A stretch of 64,000 nucleotides of DNA from a virus: positions 62,001 through 126,000 of IMG/VR virus record IMGVR_UViG_3300032070_000613. One strand, given 5' to 3'. The translations under genes and the position numbers were made by a program. Shown here one piece after another: positions 3,001 through 64,000 of the stretch (within the stretch, counting starts at the first letter, position 1; each line of letters opens with the position of its first letter). The notes under the pieces are model-generated. The model searched no databases. It was given only the letters and a program-made list of their open reading frames with translations, and was not told where the DNA came from.

Positions 3001-6000
3001 CACCAATACGCGCCGTATCAAAAAGCCTTTTTTGAAATTGCTACTCGCGTTGTTGTTCCCTCTATCAGATTCGATAGCGGAGGAGACCAAGAATTTTAAA
3101 ATTCAAGTGAAGAAAGACTCCGAGGGTCCCTGGGAGGATCTTGATCCTATCGATTTGAGTAAACTCAGTTTCAAAGAGGAACGCAATGTAGATGATGTTT
3201 TGGATAGTCTGCGATATGATTTTACAGAGATAGCATCCCTGCCTGGAAAAAAGTTCTATGATATCAAAGAAGATGAAACTAAAGGATTTCACCAGCAGTT
3301 TTATTTGAGTTTTGAGAAGATTTATGATGCGGATACCCCTGGTGGATATTTCGAGGGCATCGTGCTGCGGGCGAAAGACAGGGCATGGTGGTTTAGGATA
3401 GTGGATGGTGGTACTGAGGATATCATAGACAATTATGGGTTTGACTCCTCTAATGAGTACAGAAATTTTTATGATCCCGATAACATTTTCAAAAAAATGT
3501 TGAAGGAAAAACAGGCCTGGGAGACAGAGAGTCTCATAATAAAAGATCTCTATGACCATAGTGATAAATTAGCGCGTGCTTTTGATCAGGGAGACATGAA
3601 TCGGGCTAATAGTAGATATCAGGGATATCTCGCTAAACAGGACATTTCCACTCTTTTTACTACTACTTTCTCGGTCACCAAAGAGATATCAGGTATAATC
3701 TCCGATATTCTCACTACCGGTATAAATATTCCATCAGGCACGTTTGTCACTGTGAGCAGCACCGGTGGCACTCTACCAGTCCCTTTGAAAGAAGGCACCG
3801 TCTACTATGTGATAAATACGGGTGATAAAAAATGTAGACTGGCTACCGTGACGAGTAATAATCAGCAGGGGTCGGATGTCAATATCACTGCTGGGGGGAC
3901 TAAAGATAGCAGTAAAAAAACGGATACTGTACCATATTCGCTGAAAATGGACCAAGCTAATCCTGAGGGTATCTCTGATGTACTCACCGCCAGTATACCC
4001 GCCTATGAGCCGCAGCTGGGATTTTTGATAGATGGTCAGGGCCCCGTGTATAGGACTCTCTATCCTGATCTGGTCCACCCAGAGGATAGTGCCTCTCGGT
4101 CTATTGCTGCCACCTACCAGCAGACGAGTATGGCTCTCGGTATATATAGTGGTGCGTGGCAGAAAGAGCAGTTTTTCAAGAATCTCAATTATACGAATAA
4201 TAGTACATGGAAAAATGATTATATCCGGTGGGTGCTCGGTTTTTCTCCTGGTTTGATTTATCAAAAAGATGCCAAGCAGATGTATGAGCAGAATCTCGGA
4301 GTGATTACGGTAGGTTTAAAAGAGCTGCCCGCTTTGAGATTCAGACTGGTCCCTAGCACTGTTTTCTCGGTAGAGAACGCCACGCTGACGGTGTCCTGGG
4401 ACAATAGCGGCAAATATATACGAGTCATTTTTGATGTGGTCAATATAGCTGATCCATCTGATGTAGATATCGGTGTCTCTGTCGTGTTCAAGCTCTATGA
4501 CATAGTCTCAGTAAAAGGTATCGATACTCTCATATATAAAATGTTGGGAGAGGTCTGCGCTGATATTAATGCCTATAGATTTTATAAGTATAGTGGGGTG
4601 CCTTTATTTTCCTGTGAGGACATTTTTGCATATTACGAATACAATATCACTTCGAAAATGCTCGCTGTATACGGCATCCCGGTAGATGTCGCGACAGGGG
4701 CCGTTTTGAGTGTGACTACGGTGGAGGACCATCGTAGCTCAGACCCGAGAGTGTTGTTTCTCAATAAAGGTATAGAGGATAGGCTCTATACCCATGTGAT
4801 TCGTAACATACCGGCGTTTAATCTCGGATATACGGGGGATTACTATAGACAGAGTCTGGATGGTCCTGCTATACAGATCATCAATATAGCGCCTATGCCA
4901 AATATGTCCTATAGCGTAAATTTAGATGGAGCAGGTAAAAAGCAGTTGGTAATAAAGTATGGGGCTCCGTCACTGAATTTGTCGGCGGTGTTTCCTATTT
5001 ATAATGCATCGACTGACACCTACAAGACACTGAGTGAGCTGGCCCAGAGTATCAATGGATATCTTTATCGTACGTATAATATTTTTCGTGCCACTGTTTT
5101 GTATACTACTTATCCCGCGGCCAATCTATCCGCTGATTGTTTGTCTCTGTGTAATGATTTTATCCCGGCTACACTGTCAGCGGGGCATCTGACAAACATT
5201 GTGTATGTGCATGTACAGACCGGTCTGGATGATATCGACCCGGAGATCAATCAGGGTATTTACCGGGTGTTTTATGATACAGATGCCAGGAAAAAATTAG
5301 AGATACGATTCAATGAGATAATAGTAAATGGGTCTCGCATTGAGGAAACCCGTAATACCGGTGCTCGTTTCGTGATTGATTTTCAAAATCCCGATGGGAC
5401 TTTCAAAACTCTTACGAAGTTCTGTACTGATGTGTCAGTCACTGAATATAAACATACAAAATTATTTACGGCTACGCCTGCCCATACAGACAGTCCTGAG
5501 GCCACTCAGTATATAATCGTGGATAATACCGATCGATTCCTGGGGTTTGATAAATCTGATACTGTGTATATGGATACGTATACAGTGGATATCAATGACC
5601 CCGCGACAGCTCGGAGTGTGCTCAACACTCAAAATGCATATTTTTCTCATCCGATATATACCTCCAACGGTAATCCTAATAAATTACCCATAGACGGTAT
5701 ACCGGTGTCAGGTGAGTGGGACACTACTGTGAGTGAGCAGGTGCTCTCATTGAGCTGTAAAAACGGTACTACCTGGGAGGTGACTTTCAATGATTATGAG
5801 AGTGGCTCGAATAAAAGTTTCAAACCTACCCAGGAGATAATCAATCTGATAGATACTGCGCATAGTTTGACTGAGGGGCAGTTCCAGAGTATAGGTAATG
5901 TCGAGGACCGCCCTGTAGTAGCGATGATTAAAGAGCTCGTACTGAGGAGGATCCCCTACGCAGATGTTACTATAATATCAGAAATTTTTACCGTTGATAT

Positions 6001-8644
6001 ATCTACTGATGAGTTGTCGGTGGCATTGCCTGATTGGTCTGTAGGAGATGTGGTAAAATTTATTACGACGGGTACGTTACCTGATCCATTTGTCGTGAAT
6101 AATATTTATTATGTGATCAGCAAAACCGGTACTGGTAATAGTATCAAATTAAAAGTGTCATCTACATCTGGAGGGCCAGTAATAGACATAACGACTGTAG
6201 GGACAGGTATCCATACTGTTACGAGACAGTCTGTAAATGTACTGAAGATCAGTCTGAGGGAAAATGACACGATCAATAAACTGGCGGCGGCTATAAATAA
6301 CGCCAGATTTAATACTGATGGACAGGTAGATTCTGATCCTGATAAAGGCATCATCCAATATTTTACTGCGACCGTTTTGGGAGATACTGCCATCCAGGGA
6401 GAATATAAAAGCTATGAGCTCGCGGCTGAGTATTTGCCCATAATCAGGAGTTTCTCTGTGGTGAGCGCTACAGGGAGTACTTTTAAACAGAATTATCTCA
6501 TAGGATGGGAGATTGCTACTACCAATCTCACGGTAGATCAGACGGATGCTCTGACCATGTCCGCTAAAAGATACAGTCCAGGAGACACATATAAATTCAC
6601 GGTGAGCCCTCCTGATGTGGCATATACTGATACTCTGTTAAATAATCCTCAGGGATTCAGGAGGGACATCCTGGCTTTTGACGTGTACTGCTGGGACATC
6701 AGTGGCTATTTTGAGATAAAGGACAACTGGATTTATTTCAGGAGCGCCCTGGTAGGATATACCGCGGAATCCGACATGGGACAGCCTGATAAAACGATAG
6801 GGCATGGTATACCCCTGGCAGGGTCCGGACACGCGCTAGCCCCTGCGAATGAAAGTATAGGGGCTCTGGTCGCCAGGATGAATGCTGATAGTGTAGTGAA
6901 AAAGTATTTCTATGTGAAACTCAATTTTTCCAGATATCAGGATGCTACACAGAAAACGCTGCCGGAAAATCCTGGATTTTTTGAGTATGGCTATCTGCCT
7001 AATTATCATGTTACAGTGCCCCAGTCTCAGCTGGATAAGGTCATGCTCAGGAACGACTCCGTGATGACGCTGGGGCCGGGAGTAGGATATCAGTTTACTG
7101 CGTCGTCCTATGCTATAAATGACGCAGCGGACACGATGGATTTGTCGTGTAGCTGGCAATATAGCTATGAATATTCTAAAGAATATGTTTTGACATCAGC
7201 ATTACTGGATACTATATCTGAGCTGGTAGGAGTGATAAATACGGAGACAGCGCCGTATGTATCGACTTCTATTTTTGAGGCATATGTAGTGGGTACTCAC
7301 GGGTCTGATGCGAGTAATACTTTGATGACTGGTACTGGTGTCATAGAGGAAAAAGATGAACACTTCACAGCCAATGTATTTACAAATCAATTATCAGTAT
7401 CTAGAACGGACTGGGCTGTAAATGATGTCGTGAGATTCAGCTCTACATTTCTGCTGCCGACACCATTGGTAGCAGGCACTGATTATTATGTAGTGAGTAA
7501 AACAGGTACAGGTACGAGTATAAAGTTGAGAGTCTCTACTACATTTGGAGGGAGTCCTGTAGATATTCTCACTCCTGGAGCTGGTATCCATACTATCCAT
7601 AGGAGATACACCAATATCTACATAGCGACAGCAGTGAGTGCCATACAGATAAAAGTGAGGAATCTCACTGGAGTAAATTTCAGTATATCTAGCGCCAGTT
7701 TTAATAGGTCTCCAGCTAGGAATAGTCTCATTTTACGCTGCAGAATATCATATAATGATACTTCTTCTTTTCTAGGTCAGAATATTAATATGACTATGAA
7801 AGATCTGGCTCAGACCATATCTGATTTGAGGGGCTATACGGATTCGATCTTTCCTCCTTTATTCAGCTCCACCGTGATAAATGATATGTATCTCTATATG
7901 GGAGCTGATCGATTGTTGGATGTTGTTACTGGGACTATATCTCCGGGGACTGTGCTCTACGCCCACCTGAATGATCTCGTCGCTATGTATATGCTGAATA
8001 TGAATGCTCAGGCTAACTACACTGTGACGAATACTGTTTTTACAGCAGCATCCTATAAAAGATTTCACGAAACGCTACCCGCGGATAAAGATCTCCATAG
8101 CTGGATCGATAGCGTAATCATGGGGGACTATACGACAGGGATGGTCCAGATAGACATACTGCCTATAAAGGTAGAGGCCGTGGACTATGGACTGCTGGAG
8201 ATCATTCCTAAGACTCAGATGGTCACGGGTAATACGCCTGCGCATGGATATTTTGGTATACTGGGGGATATCCAGTGGATACAGATATCCGATCAGAATT
8301 TGCATGTACAGCTGAATTATATAAAGGAGAGGCTGGGGCAGCCCTGGAAGGATGCTCAGGGTAATGTACTCCTGGATAACTATACTCCAGAGAGATTTGA
8401 TACGCGCCCCGGCTATAATAATTTTTATGCGATTGATATGTCTAATTTTTTGGGGTATATGAAGACAGTGCGGTATAATCAGATCAAAAACAGTTTCGTC
8501 AATGAGGCCATAGTAAATAATAATTATTTCTGGCTGTACATGAAATTTCATAAGGAGTTCGGATGCGATCAGAGAGTGATAGCTCTGCAAAAACAGATAG
8601 CCTCAAAGAGCCAGGACCAGGAGACGATCGGGGATCTGGGCTGA
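2..8644 (+). CDS. giant tail/baseplate structural protein, C-terminal part (5' truncated)
   Basis: The frame is open from base 2 with no stop, so the gene begins upstream of the window; the GTG at 176 is only the first in-window start-like codon. The visible part is 2,880 residues. It is a modular virion protein with two sets of internal repeats. One set carries a motif like APTGFEGSAKI or VPKGHTGSAKI near residues 36, 338 and 447. The other carries YYVI/YYVVSKTGTG followed by a GIHT motif, near residues 1235-1310, 1995-2080 and 2455-2538. A six-lysine run lies near residue 923. No enzymatic motif was recognised. It lies upstream of gp25- and J-like baseplate genes, which suggests a tail or baseplate component; that role is inferred from context and size. 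Its end overlaps the next small gene. Confidence 0.75.
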   Translation, partial: VTGTIRYSSLPVHTEGDTRLPSQYLTLLSPTQPAFTLSYQAPTGFEGSAKILIDNKKIVITEAIRGIVNPVAYTYTIADYTDLYSLAKAIQATPSTYRTNVPWAGVPDYNPFTISPAGGAQEDYYLSAGAWSADLIIPFEDSTPIDLPYTIQIVPELFKWTLLQAFVSESSFLIKNADRTGMFLSGNLLAFRSRIDGKIYFFEVDKSKLVDDPDDSTKKNTEVDLKDSFRVNLLNPTVYKYDSVSWVDTDNRISDFDYDQSTLTFAGAPQGNLRKGTLLQIGGRYIYQVTGVTVDTDSYTIKMSPDLSTGMSLESYPGFIKQSTVPVYLDDIGPQPFMALQYTVPKGHTGSAKIKVDVDSVTLVETVDNFSTKSTTLFFEDYADIIELSSALKDVPSYVTPDKPYTVVIPETYVASLKGDGFSNFKLRPTYGSFVALPSNILIAVSAFEINYTAPAGYVGDAEVKISDTRILLKETIVNYHAGQDVSKEIRIDYAGTKDLQDIALNLIPAITSLVPGDVKPYSCTLLNGALFDRGPWGSTHVVPYSEDYLAAPVKVSGAIDGAYWYVLGPLNERRLVQGTDYTIETGTVTLTSPIIALDRFRYSYMGLWNLAEDEGSAVTCSCRYFTTLSTGSRVDVYMDYLNIDQFYLQKLTERLFSQIVVAPQITEILSQMGSGGQSNDSGANNNAVQNYVGGLADLNYALRDEQIKKQLYLRFYQWYKDRLRNLSAELQLTLGFKFAHSNSLGLNNGQYTLDDEYVEDEDYTLTKDEDIDQISNGFSDFFPVGYDGTAPKYYDRFGREYLSYNSVYCCNIKRTNADRSVSTVGMIKSENPYWNRGLDFVVWDDAYVTKNLVANYSVDVPAADRTFSSGTYTFLKRVSVGDKVRVSKYKDYYEIDQIVSPPGKNYEYLILKTAFTSGLKKKKKKRGIKTFDVHLGSDGQSVMKNRAGTHIYFDQLMDALPPDGFSIYVQRQEKEPFPMADDYGSLGASAYGEQIEGQVTNTRRIKKPFLKLLLALLFPLSDSIAEETKNFKIQVKKDSEGPWEDLDPIDLSKLSFKEERNVDDVLDSLRYDFTEIASLPGKKFYDIKEDETKGFHQQFYLSFEKIYDADTPGGYFEGIVLRAKDRAWWFRIVDGGTEDIIDNYGFDSSNEYRNFYDPDNIFKKMLKEKQAWETESLIIKDLYDHSDKLARAFDQGDMNRANSRYQGYLAKQDISTLFTTTFSVTKEISGIISDILTTGINIPSGTFVTVSSTGGTLPVPLKEGTVYYVINTGDKKCRLATVTSNNQQGSDVNITAGGTKDSSKKTDTVPYSLKMDQANPEGISDVLTASIPAYEPQLGFLIDGQGPVYRTLYPDLVHPEDSASRSIAATYQQTSMALGIYSGAWQKEQFFKNLNYTNNSTWKNDYIRWVLGFSPGLIYQKDAKQMYEQNLGVITVGLKELPALRFRLVPSTVFSVENATLTVSWDNSGKYIRVIFDVVNIADPSDVDIGVSVVFKLYDIVSVKGIDTLIYKMLGEVCADINAYRFYKYSGVPLFSCEDIFAYYEYNITSKMLAVYGIPVDVATGAVLSVTTVEDHRSSDPRVLFLNKGIEDRLYTHVIRNIPAFNLGYTGDYYRQSLDGPAIQIINIAPMPNMSYSVNLDGAGKKQLVIKYGAPSLNLSAVFPIYNASTDTYKTLSELAQSINGYLYRTYNIFRATVLYTTYPAANLSADCLSLCNDFIPATLSAGHLTNIVYVHVQTGLDDIDPEINQGIYRVFYDTDARKKLEIRFNEIIVNGSRIEETRNTGARFVIDFQNPDGTFKTLTKFCTDVSVTEYKHTKLFTATPAHTDSPEATQYIIVDNTDRFLGFDKSDTVYMDTYTVDINDPATARSVLNTQNAYFSHPIYTSNGNPNKLPIDGIPVSGEWDTTVSEQVLSLSCKNGTTWEVTFNDYESGSNKSFKPTQEIINLIDTAHSLTEGQFQSIGNVEDRPVVAMIKELVLRRIPYADVTIISEIFTVDISTDELSVALPDWSVGDVVKFITTGTLPDPFVVNNIYYVISKTGTGNSIKLKVSSTSGGPVIDITTVGTGIHTVTRQSVNVLKISLRENDTINKLAAAINNARFNTDGQVDSDPDKGIIQYFTATVLGDTAIQGEYKSYELAAEYLPIIRSFSVVSATGSTFKQNYLIGWEIATTNLTVDQTDALTMSAKRYSPGDTYKFTVSPPDVAYTDTLLNNPQGFRRDILAFDVYCWDISGYFEIKDNWIYFRSALVGYTAESDMGQPDKTIGHGIPLAGSGHALAPANESIGALVARMNADSVVKKYFYVKLNFSRYQDATQKTLPENPGFFEYGYLPNYHVTVPQSQLDKVMLRNDSVMTLGPGVGYQFTASSYAINDAADTMDLSCSWQYSYEYSKEYVLTSALLDTISELVGVINTETAPYVSTSIFEAYVVGTHGSDASNTLMTGTGVIEEKDEHFTANVFTNQLSVSRTDWAVNDVVRFSSTFLLPTPLVAGTDYYVVSKTGTGTSIKLRVSTTFGGSPVDILTPGAGIHTIHRRYTNIYIATAVSAIQIKVRNLTGVNFSISSASFNRSPARNSLILRCRISYNDTSSFLGQNINMTMKDLAQTISDLRGYTDSIFPPLFSSTVINDMYLYMGADRLLDVVTGTISPGTVLYAHLNDLVAMYMLNMNAQANYTVTNTVFTAASYKRFHETLPADKDLHSWIDSVIMGDYTTGMVQIDILPIKVEAVDYGLLEIIPKTQMVTGNTPAHGYFGILGDIQWIQISDQNLHVQLNYIKERLGQPWKDAQGNVLLDNYTPERFDTRPGYNNFYAIDMSNFLGYMKTVRYNQIKNSFVNEAIVNNNYFWLYMKFHKEFGCDQRVIALQKQIASKSQDQETIGDLG

Positions 8645-35710: not shown

Positions 35711-36349
35711 ATGTCCCTCATAACGAAGCAGAAAAAAGATTTTACTTTAAAAACTAAAGACTCGCGTGAACATGGTGAAAATATCGTTTTCATCAAAGGC
35801 GGATCTGTAGTTTTAGAAGACAAATGGATGTTTTTCCCGGACCTCCGTATTGATGTACAGCAATTAATATTAAAGTACGTCAGCGAGACCTCGAGAAGAA
35901 TATTCAATAATTTTAACGATATCCTCTATGTTTTAATAGTTTTGGATAAAACCGGTCAAGTCAAAGTCATCCCCAGCGTATCCTATAATAAAAGCTCTTT
36001 CGGTGATGTAAAAGCTTTCCCGGATCTATCTGGTAAACTCCCTCTGATTTTAGTGCGCCTGACTCAGGATGGTAGCGCCGATCTAAAGGCTTTTAAACCT
36101 ATTCTGCCAGATGACATGGAACTCTATCAGGGCTACGGTAATTACACGAAGATGGGCCCTAAAGGGGAAGAAGGATATAAAGGTATTACGGGGATGATAG
36201 GCATGACGGGTCTACAGGGCATCACGGGCTATTATGGACTGACCGGTTTCCAGGGAGCTACAGGATTACAAGGAAATGTGTTACAGGGAGTGACGGGTGT
36301 AGAGGGGTTGGTCGGAGCAAATTTATACGCTGTGGTAGTAGATCGTTAA
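35711..36349 (+). CDS. short collagen-like fibre protein, paralogue 2
   Basis: A 212-residue paralogue of the gene at 35027. Residues 1-145 hold the same N-terminal domain (IVFIKGGSVVLEDKWMFFPD). After YQGYGNYTKMGPKGEEG comes a collagen-like run with Thr in the third position (GITGMIGMTGLQGITG). No C-terminal globular domain is present, so it may act as a short spike or trimerise through the stalk. It is followed by a strong AAAGGAG site for the next gene. Confidence 0.6.
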   Translation: MSLITKQKKDFTLKTKDSREHGENIVFIKGGSVVLEDKWMFFPDLRIDVQQLILKYVSETSRRIFNNFNDILYVLIVLDKTGQVKVIPSVSYNKSSFGDVKAFPDLSGKLPLILVRLTQDGSADLKAFKPILPDDMELYQGYGNYTKMGPKGEEGYKGITGMIGMTGLQGITGYYGLTGFQGATGLQGNVLQGVTGVEGLVGANLYAVVVDR

Positions 36350-36363
36350 AGGAGTTATGCCAA

Positions 36364-38064
36364 ATGAATATAGATCCTCGTCATATTAAGCAAATATCAG
36401 ATACTAAGGCAACATTATCTGGTGCTGGTCCAAAAAGATTAAAAAAGAAGCAGATCGCTATTCAAGAAGATCTCTCTGCTAAAAGATTGTCTTTCAGAAC
36501 ATCTCTGAATGAATATGTCGAATGCGCAAATGTAGCTGATGCCACAGGCATTACCGGTCCTGCTGGTATACCAGGACCTACAGGGCCCTCAGCGGGTCCT
36601 CAGGGAGATACAGGATTACCAGGTCCTACGGGTATAGCAGGGACTTATGGGTTAACAGGATTGCCAGGGATACAGGGGCCTACAGGAGCTTTTGGTGGTG
36701 CTCCTGGAGAGACAGGATTGCTTGGGGCTACTGGCGTCCGCGGCATGACAGGTATTAACGGTCTTATAGGCAGTACTGGATCGCAAGGTTTAACGGGTGC
36801 GTCTGGTGTGACAGGTATTTCTGGAGTGACTGGTGATCAAGGAAATACGGGCGTCCAAGGTTTAACTGGTTCTCAAGGAGCTACTGGAGTATCTGGCGTT
36901 ACAGGATTGTTTGGTGTGACTGGAGATCAGGGGAATACAGGAGTACAGGGTGCGACTGGTGTAGGTCTGCAAGGAGTCACAGGAATTGGTGTCACAGGTC
37001 TCAGTGGGGTAACCGGCTCTCGAGGAGAGACGGGATCTCAGGGTCTCACCGGATTGATTGGAATCACAGGGCTCGAAGGGAGTACGGGTGTCCAGGGAAT
37101 AACTGGTGAACCTGGTTTGACCGGTATGCCTGGAATCACTGGTCAACAAGGCGCACAAGGGCTCACAGGTATCATAGGGATTACAGGAGCTCTTGGGACT
37201 ACAGGTTTTGTAGGAATTACAGGTTTTCAGGGAATAACAGGTCTGCAAGGATCCCAAGGGATAACTGGAGAACAGGGTGCTACAGGAGCTCTTGGGACTA
37301 CAGGTTATATAGGAATCACGGGTCAACAGGGAGCTCAGGGGCTCACAGGTGTTATTGGGCTGACCGGATCTCAAGGCATTACGGGAGAGCCTGGTCTAAC
37401 AGGAATTTTAGGCATTACAGGGATTGTTGGAGTTCAAGGTTTAACGGGAGATCAGGGATCTCAAGGATTGACTGGTACTATTGGATTAACAGGAACTATT
37501 GGAATTACAGGACAGCAGGGAGTATTTGGATTAACGGGATATGCTGGTATCACAGGTCCTGAGGGAGCTGGTGGTAATACGGGAGCACAGGGAGTAACTG
37601 GGAATCAAGGAGAAACAGGAGCTGGAATTCAAGGATCGACGGGATTGCGGGGATCAACCGGGATGTCTGGTATTGGTAGTGCAGGAGGCGTCACAGGAAT
37701 GATCAATATCACATTCAACGGTAATAGCAATCCTGTGTCTACAGGCGAAAAAACCATAATAAATCTACCGTTTAATTTACAGCTGGATGGCTGGAGATTT
37801 CTAGCGAATGCGACAGGGAGTATTTCTGTTGATATGGCCATCTCTAGCTATACTAATTATCCTTTTACAGGGCCTCTTATGCATGCCGGTTCTACAGGTC
37901 CTTATATATCTGCTGGAATAAAAAATGAAGATACAGATCTGAGTGATTGGGTTAATGCAACGGGAGCGGCAGGAGAACTAATCAGAGTTAGTGTAGGATC
38001 CGTGACAGGGATTTCTATGGCATATCTTTCTTTAAATTATCATCAACTCTATAATGTCATTTAA
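36364..38064 (+). CDS. long collagen-like (Gly-X-Thr) tail fibre protein
   Basis: A 566-residue protein. A 60-residue basic N-terminus is followed by roughly 380 residues of Gly-X-Y repeats, mostly with Thr or Gln in the Y position (GITGLQGVTG style), to about residue 445, then a compact C-terminal beta domain (NLPFNLQLDGWRFLANATGS). Thr in the Y position is typical of bacterial and phage collagen-like proteins that can be O-glycosylated. The start has AAAGGAG upstream. It likely forms a trimeric fibre shaft with a C-terminal tip. Its TAA stop falls inside the left hairpin of the IscB element. Confidence 0.75.
   Translation: MNIDPRHIKQISDTKATLSGAGPKRLKKKQIAIQEDLSAKRLSFRTSLNEYVECANVADATGITGPAGIPGPTGPSAGPQGDTGLPGPTGIAGTYGLTGLPGIQGPTGAFGGAPGETGLLGATGVRGMTGINGLIGSTGSQGLTGASGVTGISGVTGDQGNTGVQGLTGSQGATGVSGVTGLFGVTGDQGNTGVQGATGVGLQGVTGIGVTGLSGVTGSRGETGSQGLTGLIGITGLEGSTGVQGITGEPGLTGMPGITGQQGAQGLTGIIGITGALGTTGFVGITGFQGITGLQGSQGITGEQGATGALGTTGYIGITGQQGAQGLTGVIGLTGSQGITGEPGLTGILGITGIVGVQGLTGDQGSQGLTGTIGLTGTIGITGQQGVFGLTGYAGITGPEGAGGNTGAQGVTGNQGETGAGIQGSTGLRGSTGMSGIGSAGGVTGMINITFNGNSNPVSTGEKTIINLPFNLQLDGWRFLANATGSISVDMAISSYTNYPFTGPLMHAGSTGPYISAGIKNEDTDLSDWVNATGAAGELIRVSVGSVTGISMAYLSLNYHQLYNVI
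37184..37330 (+). repeat. internal duplication in the collagen-coding region
   Basis: A segment reading ACAGGAGCTCTTGGGACTAC begins near 37184 and again near 37283, and each copy runs on into closely similar sequence. This indicates slippage or recombination that changes stalk length by about 33 residues. Confidence 0.5.
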
Positions 38065-38079
38065 AAATGACGTTGTGGG
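38048..38079 (+). other. left-boundary hairpin of IscB copy 1
   Basis: TCTATAATGTCAT (38048-38060) can pair with ATGACGTTGTGGG (38067-38079), 13 pairs including four G-U pairs. All four become Watson-Crick pairs in copy 2. The fibre gene's TAA stop (38062-38064) lies in the loop. Confidence 0.6.
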
Positions 38080-38251
38080 AGTCTAGGGAGCTTATTCAAT
38101 AAAATGAATATGCAGACGTTACAACCAAAGTTCAAGAACGTACCTACGGATGCTTCACTAGTCCGTAGCTCTACAACTCTACCATTAAACAGGAACGAAA
38201 GCGCCAGTGTGGTAGAGAAAGTACTGAGTTGTAACAATCCCGAAGTGAATC
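38048..38251 (+). ncRNA. putative omega RNA (HEARO-like) scaffold, copy 1
   Basis: This segment lies just upstream of and overlaps the 5' part of the iscB frame, where IscB guide RNAs are encoded. Foldable stems: GCTTATTCA/TGAATATGC (38090-38098 with 38105-38113, one mismatch), ACGTT/AACGT (38116-38120 with 38137-38141), CTACGGA/TCCGTAG (38144-38150 with 38162-38168), and CTCTACCA/TGGTAGAG (38177-38184 with 38210-38217) enclosed by ACAA/TTGT. Over 38080-38251 it differs from copy 2 at only three bases; two are in a loop and one turns a G-C pair into G-U. In IscB systems the guide is the sequence directly 5' of the scaffold, here inside the 3' end of the fibre gene. Confidence 0.75.
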
Positions 38252-39462
38252 TACGGAAACAGGTATCCGGACTTACAGTCATTGTACCTGTACTCTCTTT
38301 GGAGGGGAGTCCTCTAATGCCGTGCACTCCAGTTAAAGCACGGCACCTTTTAGAAAAAAGGAGAGCCCATGTCGTAAAACTAAATCCTTTTATTATTAGA
38401 TTGAATTTCAAGTGTGAAAGCATAGTTCAGGAAATCAGTTTCGGAATGGATGCCGGATACAAAAATATTGGATATTCAGCGATTACAGATACAAAAGAAA
38501 TTTTATCAGGTGAAATAGCTCTGGATAATAAAACTAAAAGCAGAATGAACGAAAGAAAAATGTATAGAAGAAATAGAAGGTATCGTCTGAGGTATAGAAA
38601 ACCAAGATTCGATAATAGGGTAAAACCCGAGGGATGGCTCCCTCCCTCTATAAAGAGAAAATTTGATACCCATATAAATTTCATAAAAGGGCTCAAAAAA
38701 ATGTTACCTATCAAAAAGGTCACAGTTGAGATAGGAAATTTTGATATTCAAAAGATAGAGAATCCCGATATCTCTGGAGTCCAGTATCAGCAGGGTGATT
38801 TATACGGGTATTATAATTTGAAACTCTATCTTTTGGAGAGGGAAAAAGGAAAGTGTCAACTCTGCGGGAAAAAATTCACTAAAGAAAATAAACCCCACAT
38901 GCACCATATAAAACAAAGGAGTGAGGGTGGTACTAGTAGAGCTGAGGGTATCGCTCTTATACATAAAAGTTGTCATGAAGATTTGCATAAGAAAAAATTA
39001 TTTCATAAATTGAAACCAGCTAAAGCTTATAAAGCAGAAACTTTTATGTCTATAGTTGGAGGGATGTTCAAGAAATTTTTAGATTGTGATGTTACTTACG
39101 GATATGAGACGTGTGCTAAAAGAAAAGAGTTAGGTTTAGAGAAATCTCATGTGAATGATGCCTTTGTTATAGCCGGAGGGACTATTCAAACTAGATGCCT
39201 ACCTAGTATGATAGAGCAAAAGAGAATTAATAACAGGACTCTGCAGACGAATAGAAAAGGTTTTTCTTCTTCTATTAGGAAACAGAGGCATAAAATACAA
39301 AATAGAGATTTTATTTGGATTAGTGGTAAAAAATATTTGAGTGGAGGCGTGGCTAGTAGAGGGACTCAGGTATATTATTTTGATGGGAGTGAGAAGAAAC
39401 TCATCCCTTCTAAAAAGATTGAAAAAATTTATAATACTGATAATTTGATTTGGCTAGATTAA
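38104..39462 (+). CDS. iscB: IscB-like RNA-guided HNH/RuvC nuclease, copy 1
   Basis: The open frame starts at 38104 but its first part overlaps the RNA scaffold. IscB homology (VPVLSLEGSPLMPC, the PLMP motif) begins near residue 60, so translation more likely starts at GTG 38245 or at ATG 38317, which has GGAG seven bases upstream, conserved in copy 2. Motifs (numbered from 38104): RuvC-I FGMDAGYKNIGYSAI (D116), Arg-rich bridge helix 155-168, RuvC-II VEIGNFD (E209) followed by SGVQYQQGDLYG, HNH with CQLC (251-254), HMHH (265-268) and CH (290-291), RuvC-III HVNDAF (H349, D352), and a C-terminal domain. The Asn usual in the HNH loop appears replaced (EGIAL). Predicted to cut DNA guided by the adjacent RNA. 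From 38317 it has 381 residues, a normal size. Confidence 0.85.
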   Translation: MNMQTLQPKFKNVPTDASLVRSSTTLPLNRNESASVVEKVLSCNNPEVNLRKQVSGLTVIVPVLSLEGSPLMPCTPVKARHLLEKRRAHVVKLNPFIIRLNFKCESIVQEISFGMDAGYKNIGYSAITDTKEILSGEIALDNKTKSRMNERKMYRRNRRYRLRYRKPRFDNRVKPEGWLPPSIKRKFDTHINFIKGLKKMLPIKKVTVEIGNFDIQKIENPDISGVQYQQGDLYGYYNLKLYLLEREKGKCQLCGKKFTKENKPHMHHIKQRSEGGTSRAEGIALIHKSCHEDLHKKKLFHKLKPAKAYKAETFMSIVGGMFKKFLDCDVTYGYETCAKRKELGLEKSHVNDAFVIAGGTIQTRCLPSMIEQKRINNRTLQTNRKGFSSSIRKQRHKIQNRDFIWISGKKYLSGGVASRGTQVYYFDGSEKKLIPSKKIEKIYNTDNLIWLD

Positions 39463-39476
39463 ATGTCGTTATAGAG
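39461..39476 (+). repeat. right-end sequence of IscB copy 1
   Basis: AAATGTCGTTATAGAG follows the iscB stop. Its reverse complement matches 38047-38062 at 14 of 16 positions; it also resembles the hairpin right arm AAATGACGTTGTGGGAG (38065-38081) in direct orientation. Probably marks the element's right end. Confidence 0.45.
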
Positions 39477-39487
39477 TTAAAAACAAT

Positions 39488-42148
39488 ATGTACCGTTTTC
39501 CTATAACAATTGATAAAACCAAAGTCCAGAGCGTCAATAACAGCACGAGCTTTATTGACGTATCAGGCAAAGTTTGGACTGCCGCTGGTAACGCCAAGCT
39601 GAGTACCGGAGACTATGAATTTGCTCCAGCTTCTGGTGTATTTGATGGCAATGGTGATTACATATCTACGCCAAGTCACACCGACTTTAACATGACGGTT
39701 TCTGATTGTACGATAGATTTTTGGTTTAAAGCAAACTCATTTACTAATGGTTATCCTTTTTATACTACATCGGATACGCCAAACCCTACTTATGATAATA
39801 ATACCATGATATACCCATATAGTGATGGGCGTATTGGTATAGGTAAGCAAGGGTTAAATGAGATTGCATCTGCTGCAGGTACAATAACTACAGGAGTATG
39901 GACCCACGTAGCTGTAACAAGAACACAGGCTACAGGAGTTACTAAGATATATGTTAATGGCGTAGAGAAGGCAAGCAATACTACCGCTGTTTGGTCAAAT
40001 TCATCCAAATCTACTTATATTGGCGGTATGCCAACTGTCCGATTTTTTAATGGCATGATTGATGAGTTTAGAATCTCGAAGGACATCGTTCGTTGGACTT
40101 CCGATTTTTCCGTTCCTACAGCCAGGCACACTTTAGATTCATATACAAAAGTTTTACTTCATTTTGGCGATGATATTACTAACTTTCCGTTTTTATTCAA
40201 TGAAGGATGTAGCAGTATTCCTTCCGGATTCTGGTCGCACGTCGTCGATACTGTTTCAGGTTTAGATATTCGATTTTTCGATACAGACGGAGTAGCTGAA
40301 TTAAAGAGAGAGATCGTTCTATATAATTCTGGAACGAGTAAGGTTGAAGTATGGGTACAAATCCCATCACTGGGTACCGCTTCCAACAAAATTATTTACT
40401 GCCAGTATGGGGGTGCTACTAGAGCTAGTGACTATGATTTATGGAACGTTTTCACGCCCAAAGGAATTTATCACCTACAGAGTTTATCTGATTCTTCCAC
40501 GCAGAGTGTTAACCTGACCAATGTGGGCGCTTCTTCTACTACAGGAAAGATAGAAAATGGGTATAATTTTGATGGAAGCCACTATGTTTATAGGACGGAT
40601 ACAGATGATAAACAAGATATAACAGGCTCATTTACCATGAGTGTTTGGGTAAATCCTACTAGTTTACCTAGTATAGTAGGAACTATCATAGCTAAAAGAC
40701 TAAATGGTAGCGGAACACATAATTATATATTTGATGTTACATCCACTGGAAATGTAATTATCTATAACAACGGCCTTACTCCAGGATCTTTGACATCAAC
40801 GACAACCATATCAACTGGAATTTGGTCTTATGTAGCTGCTGTTTACAATGGCTCTACAGTAAAATTGTATATCAACGGAATTGAACGAGGGTCTCAATCT
40901 GTAACAGGAGCTCCTGTAGCCGATTCTGGACCCTTTGGGATAGGGGCAGATTATCCAGGCTCGTGGACAGATTTCTTTTCTGGAAAAATAGACGAAGCAC
41001 GAGTTTTTGCATCCGCTTTTTCGGCTGATTGGATAAAAACGGAATATAACAATCAGAATGATCCCTCTACTTTTTCATTATGTAGTGCAGAAGAAGATGT
41101 TACAAGAGTATACAAATTTCCTATAACAATTGATAAGACTAAGGTCCAAGGTACAAATACAAATTTCGTGTATTTGTTTTCTGAACTCTGCTCATCTATC
41201 CCTGCCGGTTTCTGGGCCCATGTAAAAGATTCAGGAGGATTAGACATAATATTTTTTGATACAGACGGTGTGACTGAGTTAAAAAGGGAAATAGTCCTGT
41301 ATTCTACCGGCACGAATAAGGTCGAGGCATGGGTACAAATCCTATCACTGGGTACCGCTTCCAACAAAATTATTTACTGTCAGTATGGGGGCGCTACCAG
41401 AGCCAATGATTCTACTCTATGGTCAGATGCCGAAGTAGTCAGTACATTCCACTATCAGGGAAATGCTAATGATTCTGGAGATAGCAACAACGGGACAGTA
41501 ACAGGAGCTGTACAAAATGACGGTAAAATACAGAAATGTTATAGTTTCGATGGTACAGGTAATAAAATCGCATCCGCTCATAATGCAAATCTAATACCAG
41601 CGAATATTTCACTATCTGCCTGGGTATATTGTAGGAGTTTTGTTGGAGCTACCGGTGGATATATGTGTGTCGTTAATAAAGGGCATGATGATGGTCTACA
41701 TGGGTATGATTTTGAAGTAAAAGAAAATGGAACTAAATTTAATGTAGCTTGGTATATGGCACATAATGGAGACTACTCCACTCCACTTTCTTCTACTAAT
41801 ACCTACGACAAAAATGCGTGGTACCATCTCGCTGTAACTTTTGACGGAACAGATGAAAAGATTTTTGTTAATGGAACATCGGACGGCACTAGAACAGATG
41901 CTTTATCATCTACACAGAATACGGGGAATTTCACTGTAGGTCGATTTGCAACTGATGGCGTGGGTCTCAACAGATATTTTGATGGACTCATAGAAGAAGT
42001 AAGAGCCTATAATGTGGCTAAAACTACTGATTGGTTTAAAACAGAGTATAACAATCAAAACGATCCCGCCACATTTTCATCCTGTGGCGCAGAATCATCT
42101 GTCATAGGAGAAGAAATTTTTACCGTATGGATACCAGGAATAATTTAA
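39488..42148 (+). CDS. LamG/DUF2341 fibre protein with nested domain
   Basis: An 886-residue protein. It begins like its paralogues with MYRFPITIDKTKVQ, but after 15 residues a complete LamG-type domain (about 16-225, VWTHVAVTRTQATGVTKIYV) interrupts the DUF2341 domain, which resumes at FNEGCSSIPSGFWSHVVD. A second LamG (about 330-530), a second full DUF2341 (from YKFPITIDKTKVQGTNTNFV near 541) and a third LamG (about 650-865) follow. Two DUF2341 stretches are almost identical in DNA (around 40361 and 41336). It is probably a carbohydrate-binding appendage; it lacks PKD domains. Confidence 0.65.
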   Translation: MYRFPITIDKTKVQSVNNSTSFIDVSGKVWTAAGNAKLSTGDYEFAPASGVFDGNGDYISTPSHTDFNMTVSDCTIDFWFKANSFTNGYPFYTTSDTPNPTYDNNTMIYPYSDGRIGIGKQGLNEIASAAGTITTGVWTHVAVTRTQATGVTKIYVNGVEKASNTTAVWSNSSKSTYIGGMPTVRFFNGMIDEFRISKDIVRWTSDFSVPTARHTLDSYTKVLLHFGDDITNFPFLFNEGCSSIPSGFWSHVVDTVSGLDIRFFDTDGVAELKREIVLYNSGTSKVEVWVQIPSLGTASNKIIYCQYGGATRASDYDLWNVFTPKGIYHLQSLSDSSTQSVNLTNVGASSTTGKIENGYNFDGSHYVYRTDTDDKQDITGSFTMSVWVNPTSLPSIVGTIIAKRLNGSGTHNYIFDVTSTGNVIIYNNGLTPGSLTSTTTISTGIWSYVAAVYNGSTVKLYINGIERGSQSVTGAPVADSGPFGIGADYPGSWTDFFSGKIDEARVFASAFSADWIKTEYNNQNDPSTFSLCSAEEDVTRVYKFPITIDKTKVQGTNTNFVYLFSELCSSIPAGFWAHVKDSGGLDIIFFDTDGVTELKREIVLYSTGTNKVEAWVQILSLGTASNKIIYCQYGGATRANDSTLWSDAEVVSTFHYQGNANDSGDSNNGTVTGAVQNDGKIQKCYSFDGTGNKIASAHNANLIPANISLSAWVYCRSFVGATGGYMCVVNKGHDDGLHGYDFEVKENGTKFNVAWYMAHNGDYSTPLSSTNTYDKNAWYHLAVTFDGTDEKIFVNGTSDGTRTDALSSTQNTGNFTVGRFATDGVGLNRYFDGLIEEVRAYNVAKTTDWFKTEYNNQNDPATFSSCGAESSVIGEEIFTVWIPGII
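40361..41405 (+). repeat. duplicated DUF2341 segment
   Basis: About 69 bases starting near 40361 (CAAATCCCATCACTGGGTAC) recur near 41336 with only a few changes, inside the same gene. Related but more diverged copies occur in the genes at 22884 and 33547. The copies are likely sites for homologous recombination among fibre genes. Confidence 0.5.
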
Positions 42149-61779: not shown

Positions 61780-61952
61780 ATAAAAATCTGACACGAGAGG
61801 CTATCGTAGCTGAGATAGCCGTACTCCAGGATATCATTAAAAAATATCAGGCTGGAGAGCCTGTGATTGGAGTATACTCATATCCAGCTGCTCTCCAACG
61901 TTTGATGTATTTACGCCATAAACTGACACAGATCAAAAAGAAAATAAAATGA
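61758..61952 (+). CDS. small helical protein
   Basis: A 64-residue, highly helical and basic protein (AVLQDIIKKYQAGEP, then LMYLRHKLTQIKKKIK). Its start overlaps the sigma-like gene and follows AAAAGGA; its stop overlaps the next start (ATGA). The placement supports a real translated gene. No family was recognised; a small regulator or accessory factor is possible. Confidence 0.55.
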   Translation: MADDRRIDKNLTREAIVAEIAVLQDIIKKYQAGEPVIGVYSYPAALQRLMYLRHKLTQIKKKIK

Positions 61953-62464
61953 CATACTATACCGGGGTCGGCTCTCGTCAAACGCCTACAGATATCTCAA
62001 CCCTAATGACCGACATCGCTAAATTTCTTAGCGAGACTGGTTATGTTTTGAGATCGGGTGGAGCGAAGGGGGCCGATTCTTTTTTTGAAGCGGGCGTATC
62101 AGACCCGACAAAGAAAGAGATTTATCTCCCGTGGAAAGATTTTAATGGCAATAAATCCCCTCTGTTCAGAGTCACGGATGAAGCCCTCAAACTGGCTAGC
62201 AAATACCATCCTGCATGGAATAAATTATCCTACGGAGCTCGCAAGCTCATGGGCCGTAATGGCTATCAGGTCCTGGGATCTAATTTGAAAACTCCGAGTA
62301 ATTTTTTGATAGTCTGGACAGAGGATGGAAAAGAAATAGGCGGGACCGCTCAGGCTATGAGAATAGCTAAAGACTATAAAATACCTGTGTATAATTTATT
62401 TTTTGAAGAATGCAGAAATTTAATGAATTATTGGATAGCCAATAAAAAAGTAAAAATAGTATGA
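61949..62464 (+). CDS. SLOG-family (DprA/LOG-like) nucleotide-binding protein
   Basis: A 171-residue Rossmann-like protein. YTGVGSRQTP at the start and LRSGGAKGADSFFEAG fit the SLOG superfamily (DprA, LOG, TRPM-type), whose loops bind nucleotides or nucleotide-derived ligands. Many phages carry such small proteins of uncertain role. It is coupled by ATGA overlaps to both neighbours. Without the DprA C-terminal domain it is not a standard DprA. Confidence 0.6.
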   Translation: MTYYTGVGSRQTPTDISTLMTDIAKFLSETGYVLRSGGAKGADSFFEAGVSDPTKKEIYLPWKDFNGNKSPLFRVTDEALKLASKYHPAWNKLSYGARKLMGRNGYQVLGSNLKTPSNFLIVWTEDGKEIGGTAQAMRIAKDYKIPVYNLFFEECRNLMNYWIANKKVKIV

Positions 62465-63627
62465 CCGATGAAATAGACATCAGTGACATCCTGGAAGATG
62501 AGGTGGAGGAGAGTCCCGCTCAATCCCAAGTGACTCCGGCTATCCCCGACTCTCCAGACAGCCCCGCCCGGAAAGAAATAGCGCAGCTGAGAGATCGTCT
62601 GAGAGTATCTCACGAGCACTGCCGTGATCTTTTCGTGGATATGAGGACTGTGGACTACATAGCTACTCCCGATGACTCCTATATCGAATTTCTGGATAAA
62701 AATTATTACGACAAAAGGCTGTATTTTAAAGTGGACCCTCAGAGACCGAATGATCCTAAAATCATAATAGCCCAGCAGCAATTTTGCAAGCTGCTAGGTA
62801 TCCCCTATAAATTTTTTGCCGCTAACAGGCCCTCCCTGAAAATGAACATCGTGAAGACCTGGCAGGCAGGCCTGACCGCGGATGAGAGTAAAGCCCAGAG
62901 CGTCCTCAAAATTCGGGAGTCTAAAGATTGCTCTATCATCAGAGCATTCATACCAGTAACTAAATGCTGCGTACCTCTCTATGAACTCATAGACATAATC
63001 CTGAATGGCGTGACTATCCCTCTCACAATGGAGTTCGTGTACGGGGATGAAAGGGATGATTTGATATTACACGCCCGTTTTCTTTTTAACAAAGAATATA
63101 CGGTACTGGGATCTAAGGTGTGCGTGGGATTTTCTTTGATAGCGTCTGAGCTGGATGCCTCCCCATTCATAATAGAAATCTTTTTACATGATAAAGAGTT
63201 TGCAACTTCGTATATTAGTACATATGGCGGGGACCCCTTTTTCAAGTCTAAATATGACGGTATCAAAGCGGATCAAATTAAAGATCTGATCCCTAAAATG
63301 TTAAACAGAATCGATAGTGAAGCTCCCGAAATGATAGAAAGGGTAGAGAAGAAAGTATCCGATACTATGCAGAGCGGATTTTTTTGTGCGGAAACTGAGT
63401 GCGTATCGCTACTGAAAGCTAAGGGTATCAACGGCAAAGTGAAAAAAGCGGTATATCATCAGATTACTGAGTGCCAGGATAAAATCAAAACTCCCTGGGA
63501 TATTGCTCGTCACGTGGGTCTGGTGGCTAAAGATTTAGATTCGATAAAGAGGCTCGCTGTAGAGCGGGCTATAGGTCAATATTTGCGACTAACTTTTTCT
63601 AACCCTACAACGTCATATAAAAAATGA
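62461..63627 (+). CDS. DUF932-like conserved phage protein
   Basis: A 388-residue protein. After an acidic N-terminus, a FCKLLGIPYKFFAANRPSLK segment and the following helical and beta parts resemble DUF932/phage-plasmid proteins of unknown function. It ends with TGA inside the sequence AAATGA, which is also the boundary of the second IscB element; the last residues (PTTSYKK) lie in the left hairpin arm. This raises the possibility that the normal C-terminus or coupling to a downstream gene was changed by insertion. Confidence 0.5.
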   Translation: MTDEIDISDILEDEVEESPAQSQVTPAIPDSPDSPARKEIAQLRDRLRVSHEHCRDLFVDMRTVDYIATPDDSYIEFLDKNYYDKRLYFKVDPQRPNDPKIIIAQQQFCKLLGIPYKFFAANRPSLKMNIVKTWQAGLTADESKAQSVLKIRESKDCSIIRAFIPVTKCCVPLYELIDIILNGVTIPLTMEFVYGDERDDLILHARFLFNKEYTVLGSKVCVGFSLIASELDASPFIIEIFLHDKEFATSYISTYGGDPFFKSKYDGIKADQIKDLIPKMLNRIDSEAPEMIERVEKKVSDTMQSGFFCAETECVSLLKAKGINGKVKKAVYHQITECQDKIKTPWDIARHVGLVAKDLDSIKRLAVERAIGQYLRLTFSNPTTSYKK

Positions 63628-63636
63628 CGATGTAGG
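63604..63636 (+). other. left-boundary hairpin of IscB copy 2
   Basis: CCTACAACGTCAT (63604-63616) pairs with ATGACGATGTAGG (63624-63636), 12 of 13 Watson-Crick pairs with one A-A mismatch. The DUF932-like gene's TGA stop is at 63625-63627 in the right arm. Confidence 0.65.
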
Positions 63637-63808
63637 AGTCTAGGGAGCTTATTCAGTAACATGAATATGCAGACGTTACAACCAAAGTTCAAGAACGTAC
63701 CTACGGATGCTTCACTAGTCTGTAGCTCTACAACTCTACCATTAAACAGGAACGAAAGCGCCAGTGTGGTAGAGAAAGTACTGAGTTGTAACAATCCCGA
63801 AGTGAATC
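63604..63808 (+). ncRNA. putative omega RNA (HEARO-like) scaffold, copy 2
   Basis: Almost the same sequence as copy 1: over 63637-63808 only three bases differ. All stems listed for copy 1 are kept; the base at 63721 is T instead of C and makes a G-U pair in the CTACGGA/TCTGTAG stem. The sequence just 5' of it (end of the DUF932-like gene) would supply the guide and differs from that of copy 1, as expected of a mobile guide-RNA system. Confidence 0.75.
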
Positions 63809-64000
63809 TTCACTGGAAACGGGTATCCGGACTTAAAGTCATTGTACCCGTACTCTCTTTAAAAAGGAGTCCTTTAATGCCTTGCGGTTTGATCAAAGCT
63901 CGTCACTTAATTAAAGGAGGTAAAGCAAAAGTAGTTAAACTGAACCCACTAGTCATTCAGCTTAAATTTGACTGTGAAAACCAGATCCAAGATGTTTCTT
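63661..64000 (+). CDS. iscB: IscB-like nuclease, copy 2, N-terminal part (cut by window edge)
   Basis: The frame is open to the window end. It contains the PLMP motif region (VIVPVLSLKRSPLMPC) followed by IKARHLIKGGKAKVVKLNP, the usual IscB N-terminus; the RuvC and HNH motifs would lie beyond the edge. The ATG at 63877 has AAGGAG seven bases upstream; the earlier frame overlaps the RNA scaffold. The coding part aligned with copy 1 after that ATG agrees at about 70 of 123 bases by hand count, so it is a diverged paralogue rather than a recent duplicate. Confidence 0.75.
   Translation, partial: MNMQTLQPKFKNVPTDASLVCSSTTLPLNRNESASVVEKVLSCNNPEVNLHWKRVSGLKVIVPVLSLKRSPLMPCGLIKARHLIKGGKAKVVKLNPLVIQLKFDCENQIQDVS

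Follow-up and report, generated by a model that had tools for sequence, protein, structure and literature searches.

An uncultured phage with an IscB nuclease frame that appears to start within the guide RNA

An uncultured phage carries an IscB nuclease gene next to its omegaRNA, and in the clade to which this gene belongs the IscB frame appears to begin inside the guide RNA itself. The stretch of DNA that was analysed (the window) is 64,000 nucleotides long and corresponds to positions 62001-126000 of a 141,095-bp virus record; coordinates are those of the window unless the record or a locus is named. Two copies of the IscB-omegaRNA element, referred to as E1 (copy 1) and E2 (copy 2), begin in this window. 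The identity of the element, the open frame, and the overlap of a pseudoknot with a ribosome-binding site can be read from the sequence. A proposal that builds on them, and that we consider somewhat probable as a whole, is that E1 is a transposase-less homing IscB translated from a start inside the omegaRNA, with each transcript serving as either guide or message.

The IscB-omegaRNA element and its surroundings

E1 is an element of the HEARO/OMEGA type located at 38045-39487 on the plus strand. Its ends were placed near these positions because E1 and E2 align at 76% DNA identity across the whole element; they are limits of homology, accurate to within a few bases, and the left end is common to a third omegaRNA in the record. 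In our reading of the E1/E2 alignment, the right end (39463-39487, plus strand) is similar to the 5' hairpin's right arm. The IscB open reading frame (38104-39462, plus strand) encodes 452 amino acids, and its conserved core spans 38281-39459. A preliminary description had placed an IscB-type gene with PLMP, RuvC motifs, and HNH at residues 60-452 of this frame and had named profile and structure searches as a check. Both searches were run, and the placement was correct. The frame matched the NCBIfam equivalog NF040563 (guided_IscB) with 300.8 bits, against a cut-off of 175, and the Pfam families RRXRR (PF14239, 5e-59) and HNH (PF01844), both above cut-off. Solved IscBs such as 7xht/8csz matched the protein by sequence and fold, and IscB was the best structural match of the predicted model (mean pLDDT 69). 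A PLMPC motif is present, and the RuvC-I Asp, RuvC-II Glu, HNH histidines, and RuvC-III H..D are invariant in 13 relatives. The assignment of E1 as a phage-borne IscB with its own omegaRNA is therefore supported, and nuclease activity is predicted. The preliminary description did not recognise residues 1-57 as a conceptual translation of the omegaRNA. Two features outside the window were overlooked as well: a third omegaRNA, which has no nuclease gene, and an IscB-like gene lacking HNH.

A structured RNA had been expected upstream of IscB, and the HEARO family (RF02033) matched at 38069-38254 with 88.7 bits (gathering threshold 83). The omegaRNA scaffold, which shows covariation within the clade, was assigned to 38045-38254 (plus strand). 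Among RNA families, only HEARO reached an E-value of 0.1 or better in the 38000-38400 region, and only HEARO reached its gathering threshold in the window, where no group I intron or IStron core was found. Likewise, no PF01797 match indicative of a Y1 (IS200/IS605-type) transposase was found in the whole 141-kb record, which may be incomplete. The putative guide (38021-38044, plus strand) consists of 16-24 nt of upstream fibre-gene sequence. It is assigned by its position directly 5' of the scaffold; elements of the same clade have their left end at the first base of the scaffold. The guide-length sequences of all three omegaRNAs each occurred once in the record (up to 3 mismatches), and no target for 38021-38044 was found there. 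The Shine-Dalgarno-like sequence AGGGAG lies at 38085-38090 (plus strand), with G38086-A38089 forming the 5' strand of a pseudoknot, and it pairs with the 3' strand AUCCC at 38237-38241 (plus strand). Two in-frame ATGs within the omegaRNA follow at 38104-38112 (plus strand), the second (38110) as part of ATGCAG. As first described, the element lies between two fibre genes. A collagen-like tail-fibre gene (36364-38064, plus strand) precedes it and has its stop codon within the element, and a fibre-type gene with laminin-G-like domains (39488-42148, plus strand) follows. A target-adjacent motif (TAM) of the form NWRRNA was considered and dropped, as the right flanks of E1 and E2 fit it but those of L065 and L067 do not.

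The second IscB locus of the preliminary description is likewise real. The scaffold and the IscB start of E2 lie at 63601-64000 (plus strand), and the copy runs past the window to ~127047 of the record. RF02033 matched E2 at 63587-63812 with 85.4 bits (gathering 83).

Several other genes and repeats in the record deserve mention. A 642-aa protein, from the third RRXRR gene of the record, is encoded after the capsid gene (L004 1659-4600, record 5158-8099). It is IscB-like but has no Pfam HNH match; it has a C-terminal DUF7487 match, and its gene is followed by one for a LAGLIDADG_2 endonuclease. Locus L240 contains, at 2181-2346, two tandem units of ~84 nt, each with a 30-nt stretch (GTCGCTCTTTGATAGAGCGTGGATTGAAAC) resembling a type I-C CRISPR repeat. 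These units recall RNA-based anti-CRISPRs; a plasmid search with them returned weak matches only. The surrounding region (L240 1710-2510) consists of repeated structured units whose family members lie 155-331 bases apart, and one unit gave a sub-threshold match to the Y RNA-like YrlA (26.3 bits, gathering 69). A DprA-like recombination-mediator gene is located at 61949-62464 of the window (PHROG match, 9e-60).

The open frame and the pseudoknot in relatives

A survey using only the protein core as a query collected 28 loci from bacterial or archaeal genomes, 80 loci from viral contigs, and 5 phage-record matches. For each locus, we determined how far the IscB frame remains open upstream of the core, and a tree was built from 99 core proteins. 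E1 and E2 fell in a branch of 40 core proteins (SH-aLRT 100). The frame was open through the whole omegaRNA in 36 of the 39 branch members that could be assessed; three were closed, and one more was cut by the contig end. Open or closed labels were assigned by a pattern on the translation, with two rows corrected by hand. Open frames also occur outside the branch (for example, L040, L042, L046, L098, L100, and L133), and L134 and L137 seem to use a TTG start. Judged from the tree, there were 7-8 gains or losses of the open frame, and its origin is not single.

Among 31 aligned members, ATGCAG is found at one place inside the omegaRNA in all 31, which were picked for having it; L093 is the one branch member tested there that lacks it. 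The same viral locus, L093, holds two HEARO RNAs (1529-1777 and 2711-2971) ~0.9 kb apart with a tRNA between them. The 31 members have no in-frame stop in 1478 codons, compared to 252 stops in the other two frames. When alignment columns were resampled with paired columns drawn together, the frame was open in 55% of trials as opposed to the 31/31 observed. Of the distinct gap runs between the ATG and the core, 12 of 16 have a length divisible by three, compared to 14 of 57 upstream of the ATG; inspection places the four exceptions (1, 2, 4, and 10) in the linker that follows the omegaRNA. A Shine-Dalgarno sequence and start directly before the core were present in only 4 of 43 open members but in 40 of 55 others. 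The sister pair L091/L095, nested in the branch, has lost the frame and ATGCAG and has a ribosome-binding site and start before the core, with HEARO RNAs retained (113 and 110 bits). In L096, the third frame-less branch member, a new start is not evident, and the locus may be damaged. A TTG with a good Shine-Dalgarno sequence follows the omegaRNA in some open members, such as L068 and L083, so the internal start may not be the sole one there. The Fisher tests and the column resampling ignore shared ancestry, and several tests use the same loci. Thresholds and groups were set during the analysis with no held-out set, and most loci are metagenomic contigs.

Is the peptide encoded by the omegaRNA itself under selection? 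Third codon positions in the omegaRNA frame were not more variable in the 31 aligned members, and the RNA-encoded residues are predicted to be disordered (pLDDT under 50). For these reasons, the claim is limited to a conserved openness of the frame and does not extend to selection on the peptide. In the usual layout, which is not strictly defining, the omegaRNA is separate from and upstream of the open reading frame; E1 departs from it.

The Shine-Dalgarno-like sequence of the E1/E2 clade is, as judged from aligned sequences, one strand of a covarying pseudoknot. The HEARO pseudoknot joins a 5' strand to a complementary one close to the 3' end of the RNA. The 5' strand of open members is mostly AGGGAG, AGAGGG, or AGGAGG and lies ahead of ATGCAG. 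Many non-open members have an AGCC- or AGTC-like strand, partnered by UUGGC or UUGAC. An all-purine 5' strand was present in approximately 40 of 43 open members versus 8 of 30 others, a count made with a pattern-based caller that found no pseudoknot in 26 loci and picked clearly wrong partners in some rows. For this count, L104 was moved to the other group, and L134 and L137 to the open group. Covariation supports the pairing: 90.6% of cells were paired, compared to 31-40% when the alignment was slid, with changes on both sides in 31 of 42 pairs. Within the pseudoknot, columns 26/249 are GC in 19 members, AU in 11, and UA in 1, and columns 28/247 are AU in 14, GC in 11, and GU in 6. In our reading, the spacing between the Shine-Dalgarno-like sequence and the ATG is 13-19 nt in E1, longer than usual, with a hairpin in between. 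It is ~5-7 nt in L089 and L099, where the hairpin between the two is shortest.

Mobility, proposed mechanism, and competing explanations

Elements of the clade appear to move. Two viral contigs, L090 (2742-4240) and L092 (16-1514), share one IscB element (97% identity) inserted at sites that are unrelated to each other, which suggests recent movement. The identity begins with GTCAAC, exactly where the scaffold starts; therefore, the sequence 5' of the scaffold is that of the host gene, as OMEGA guides require. A same-strand open reading frame of at least 80 codons ends inside the element in 10 of the 20 clade loci whose left end could be placed, compared to 11% for random positions. In L069, the upstream gene runs into the element, and in a relative (L154, 46% identical), it ends at a stop of its own after a few more codons. 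A right-end hairpin that recalls IS200/IS605 ends is present in several clade members (L090, L076, and L066) and points to transposition in trans for these members; E1 and E2 have no such hairpin at their ends. A search through relatives of the flanking genes found no empty allele for E1 or E2 and no close relative. No relatives were found of the gene upstream of E2 (62461-63627), and those of the gene at 35711-36349 were only partial (best segments of 34-87 residues in the C-terminal part, 46-55% identity). A route through the tail-tube gene upstream of L077/L082 was abandoned, as the intergenic sequence was too diverged to read a guide; blastn found the L077/L082 element only in those contigs and in a near-copy of L077.

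Filled and empty sites can be compared in Staphylococcus phages. Phage VL10 carries a distant IscB (30% identity) with a HEARO RNA of 32.5 bits. The search from VL10 matched 57 records, of which 7 span 80% or more of the query and the rest about half or less. The seven are taken to hold the element because of this coverage, and the ~50 others to represent the empty site. In a comparison with phage Romulus, the sequence to the left of the VL10 insertion is the beginning of a resolvase gene, matching the empty allele. To the right, this beginning is repeated in a second copy that differs mostly at synonymous positions (CTGACAAATTCGAAGAAAAAAGG versus ATGACAAATAGTAAAAAAAAAGG). In our reading of this one comparison, the insertion would preserve the gene but alter the target. 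A second genus provides another filled and empty pair, Golestan101 and phiSA_BS1, at a different site. The left flank matches the empty allele in both pairs, which are distant from E1 and E2. These flanks fit guide-directed homing or retention. For E1 and E2, homing would be argued by analogy with these distant relatives of at most 30% identity.

In the model that we propose, the guide at the 5' end of the omegaRNA would derive from the gene that harbours the element. IscB would use this guide to cut the same site in phage genomes without the element, and repair from an element-bearing genome would copy the element in, providing both homing and retention. IscB translation would start inside the omegaRNA, with one pseudoknot strand as the ribosome-binding site and the scaffold as the first ~57 codons. 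The folded omegaRNA would hide the ribosome-binding site, and a translated transcript would lose the fold. In other words, each RNA molecule would be a guide or a message but not both, tying the level of IscB to that of the omegaRNA. For this phage, we infer translation from the internal start, the switch, cleavage, and homing. A wider reading is more tentative, and we place it somewhat below an even chance: a largely phage-borne IscB clade has merged guide RNA and message in this manner, with folding and translation mutually exclusive, and the resulting self-limiting homing nuclease may also serve nuclease-less omegaRNAs in trans.

Could the open frame be passive, a product of shared ancestry and RNA conservation, with IscB starting downstream (GTG 38245, for example, or some unusual codon) and a separate RNA serving as the guide? 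The omegaRNA has a conserved GTG close to its 3' end, more than half of the resampled alignments stay open, and the third positions and the disordered residues give no sign of selection on a peptide. However, no Shine-Dalgarno sequence precedes the GTG in E1, gap lengths in the omegaRNA keep the frame, the Shine-Dalgarno-like pseudoknot strand accompanies the open frame, and members without the open frame mostly have a ribosome-binding site of their own. We regard a passive frame as unlikely. We judge it similarly improbable that E1 is a non-autonomous element of the IS200/IS605 type, mobilised in trans by a TnpA of the host, with IscB acting in retention only and no homing between phages. The IS605-like right ends of some members agree with such movement, as do Clostridioides relatives in which, in our reading, an apparent TnpA gene adjoins IscB, and homing alone does not explain one element at the two unrelated sites of L090 and L092. 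On the other hand, E1 and E2 have no right-end hairpin, the record has no detected Y1 transposase, and the seven Staphylococcus phage elements occupy one exact site that is empty in ~50 relatives, although a single insertion followed by common descent would fit that pattern too.

The third omegaRNA bears on a different idea, namely that several omegaRNAs direct the phage's IscB against competitors, either other phages or plasmids. This HEARO RNA (record 137454-137639, 90.2 bits) has no IscB body, as the frame ends a few residues into the core. Its region (L240 1430-1690, record 137429-137690) has its own guide-length sequence and a promoter-like site (TTGACA-17-TATATT) upstream, and in our reading, its main stem stays paired through changes on both sides relative to E1; it could thus supply a guide in trans. 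Against this, its guide-length sequence occurs once in the record, promoter-like sites around it are not in excess (5 versus a shuffle mean of 3.8), and it may be a deletion remnant. A role against competitors seems very unlikely to us.

Significance and comparison with known systems

If IscB starts inside its omegaRNA, the RNA would have to be unfolded for reading and folded for guiding, a built-in limit on a nuclease that might otherwise harm its carrier. The guide-or-message decision would be testable by point mutations in one pseudoknot. For annotation, the odd N-terminus returned by gene callers would be an RNA scaffold read as protein. The Staphylococcus phages offer an isolate system for testing IscB homing. 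No description of an IscB frame starting inside an omegaRNA was found in the literature, mostly open-access, and an earlier description is possible. The preliminary description was right about a phage-borne IscB, as the profiles and the omegaRNA confirm, but not about its novelty, which publications had preceded. More than 16% of genomic fragments with HEARO/IscB were classed as likely viral or prophage (PMC9755519), and HEARO is present in Staphylococcus phages (PMC13346280). PHROGs also includes matching families. A phage-borne IscB alone is not new.

E1 shares its protein architecture and catalytic residues with IscB/OMEGA nucleases such as OgeuIscB and HEARO nucleases such as MG35-1, as well as a HEARO-type omegaRNA 5' of the core with the guide 5' of the scaffold. 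It differs from them in that its frame crosses the omegaRNA, its RBS-like sequence is a pseudoknot strand, and no transposase was detected in the record. The IscB elements of Staphylococcus phages (Silviavirus and Baoshanvirus) are, like E1, phage-borne with a HEARO-like RNA, and their patchy presence at an exact site needs no open frame to explain its position. Their proteins are only 26-30% identical to that of E1, a separate Shine-Dalgarno sequence and ATG precede the core, and HEARO scores only ~32 bits. Phage homing endonucleases (HNH, GIY-YIG, and LAGLIDADG) are likewise patchy nuclease genes at exact sites of phage genomes with proposed cutting of the empty allele, but E1 would be targeted by an RNA guide. 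In TnpB systems, the guide RNA (omegaRNA or reRNA) also overlaps the nuclease coding sequence, at the 3' end of the gene, whereas the overlap in E1 is at the 5' end and includes the ribosome-binding site. TnpB processes its own mRNA into omegaRNA (PMC10278001). If our proposal is true, E1 would parallel this overlap of guide and message at the opposite end of the gene.
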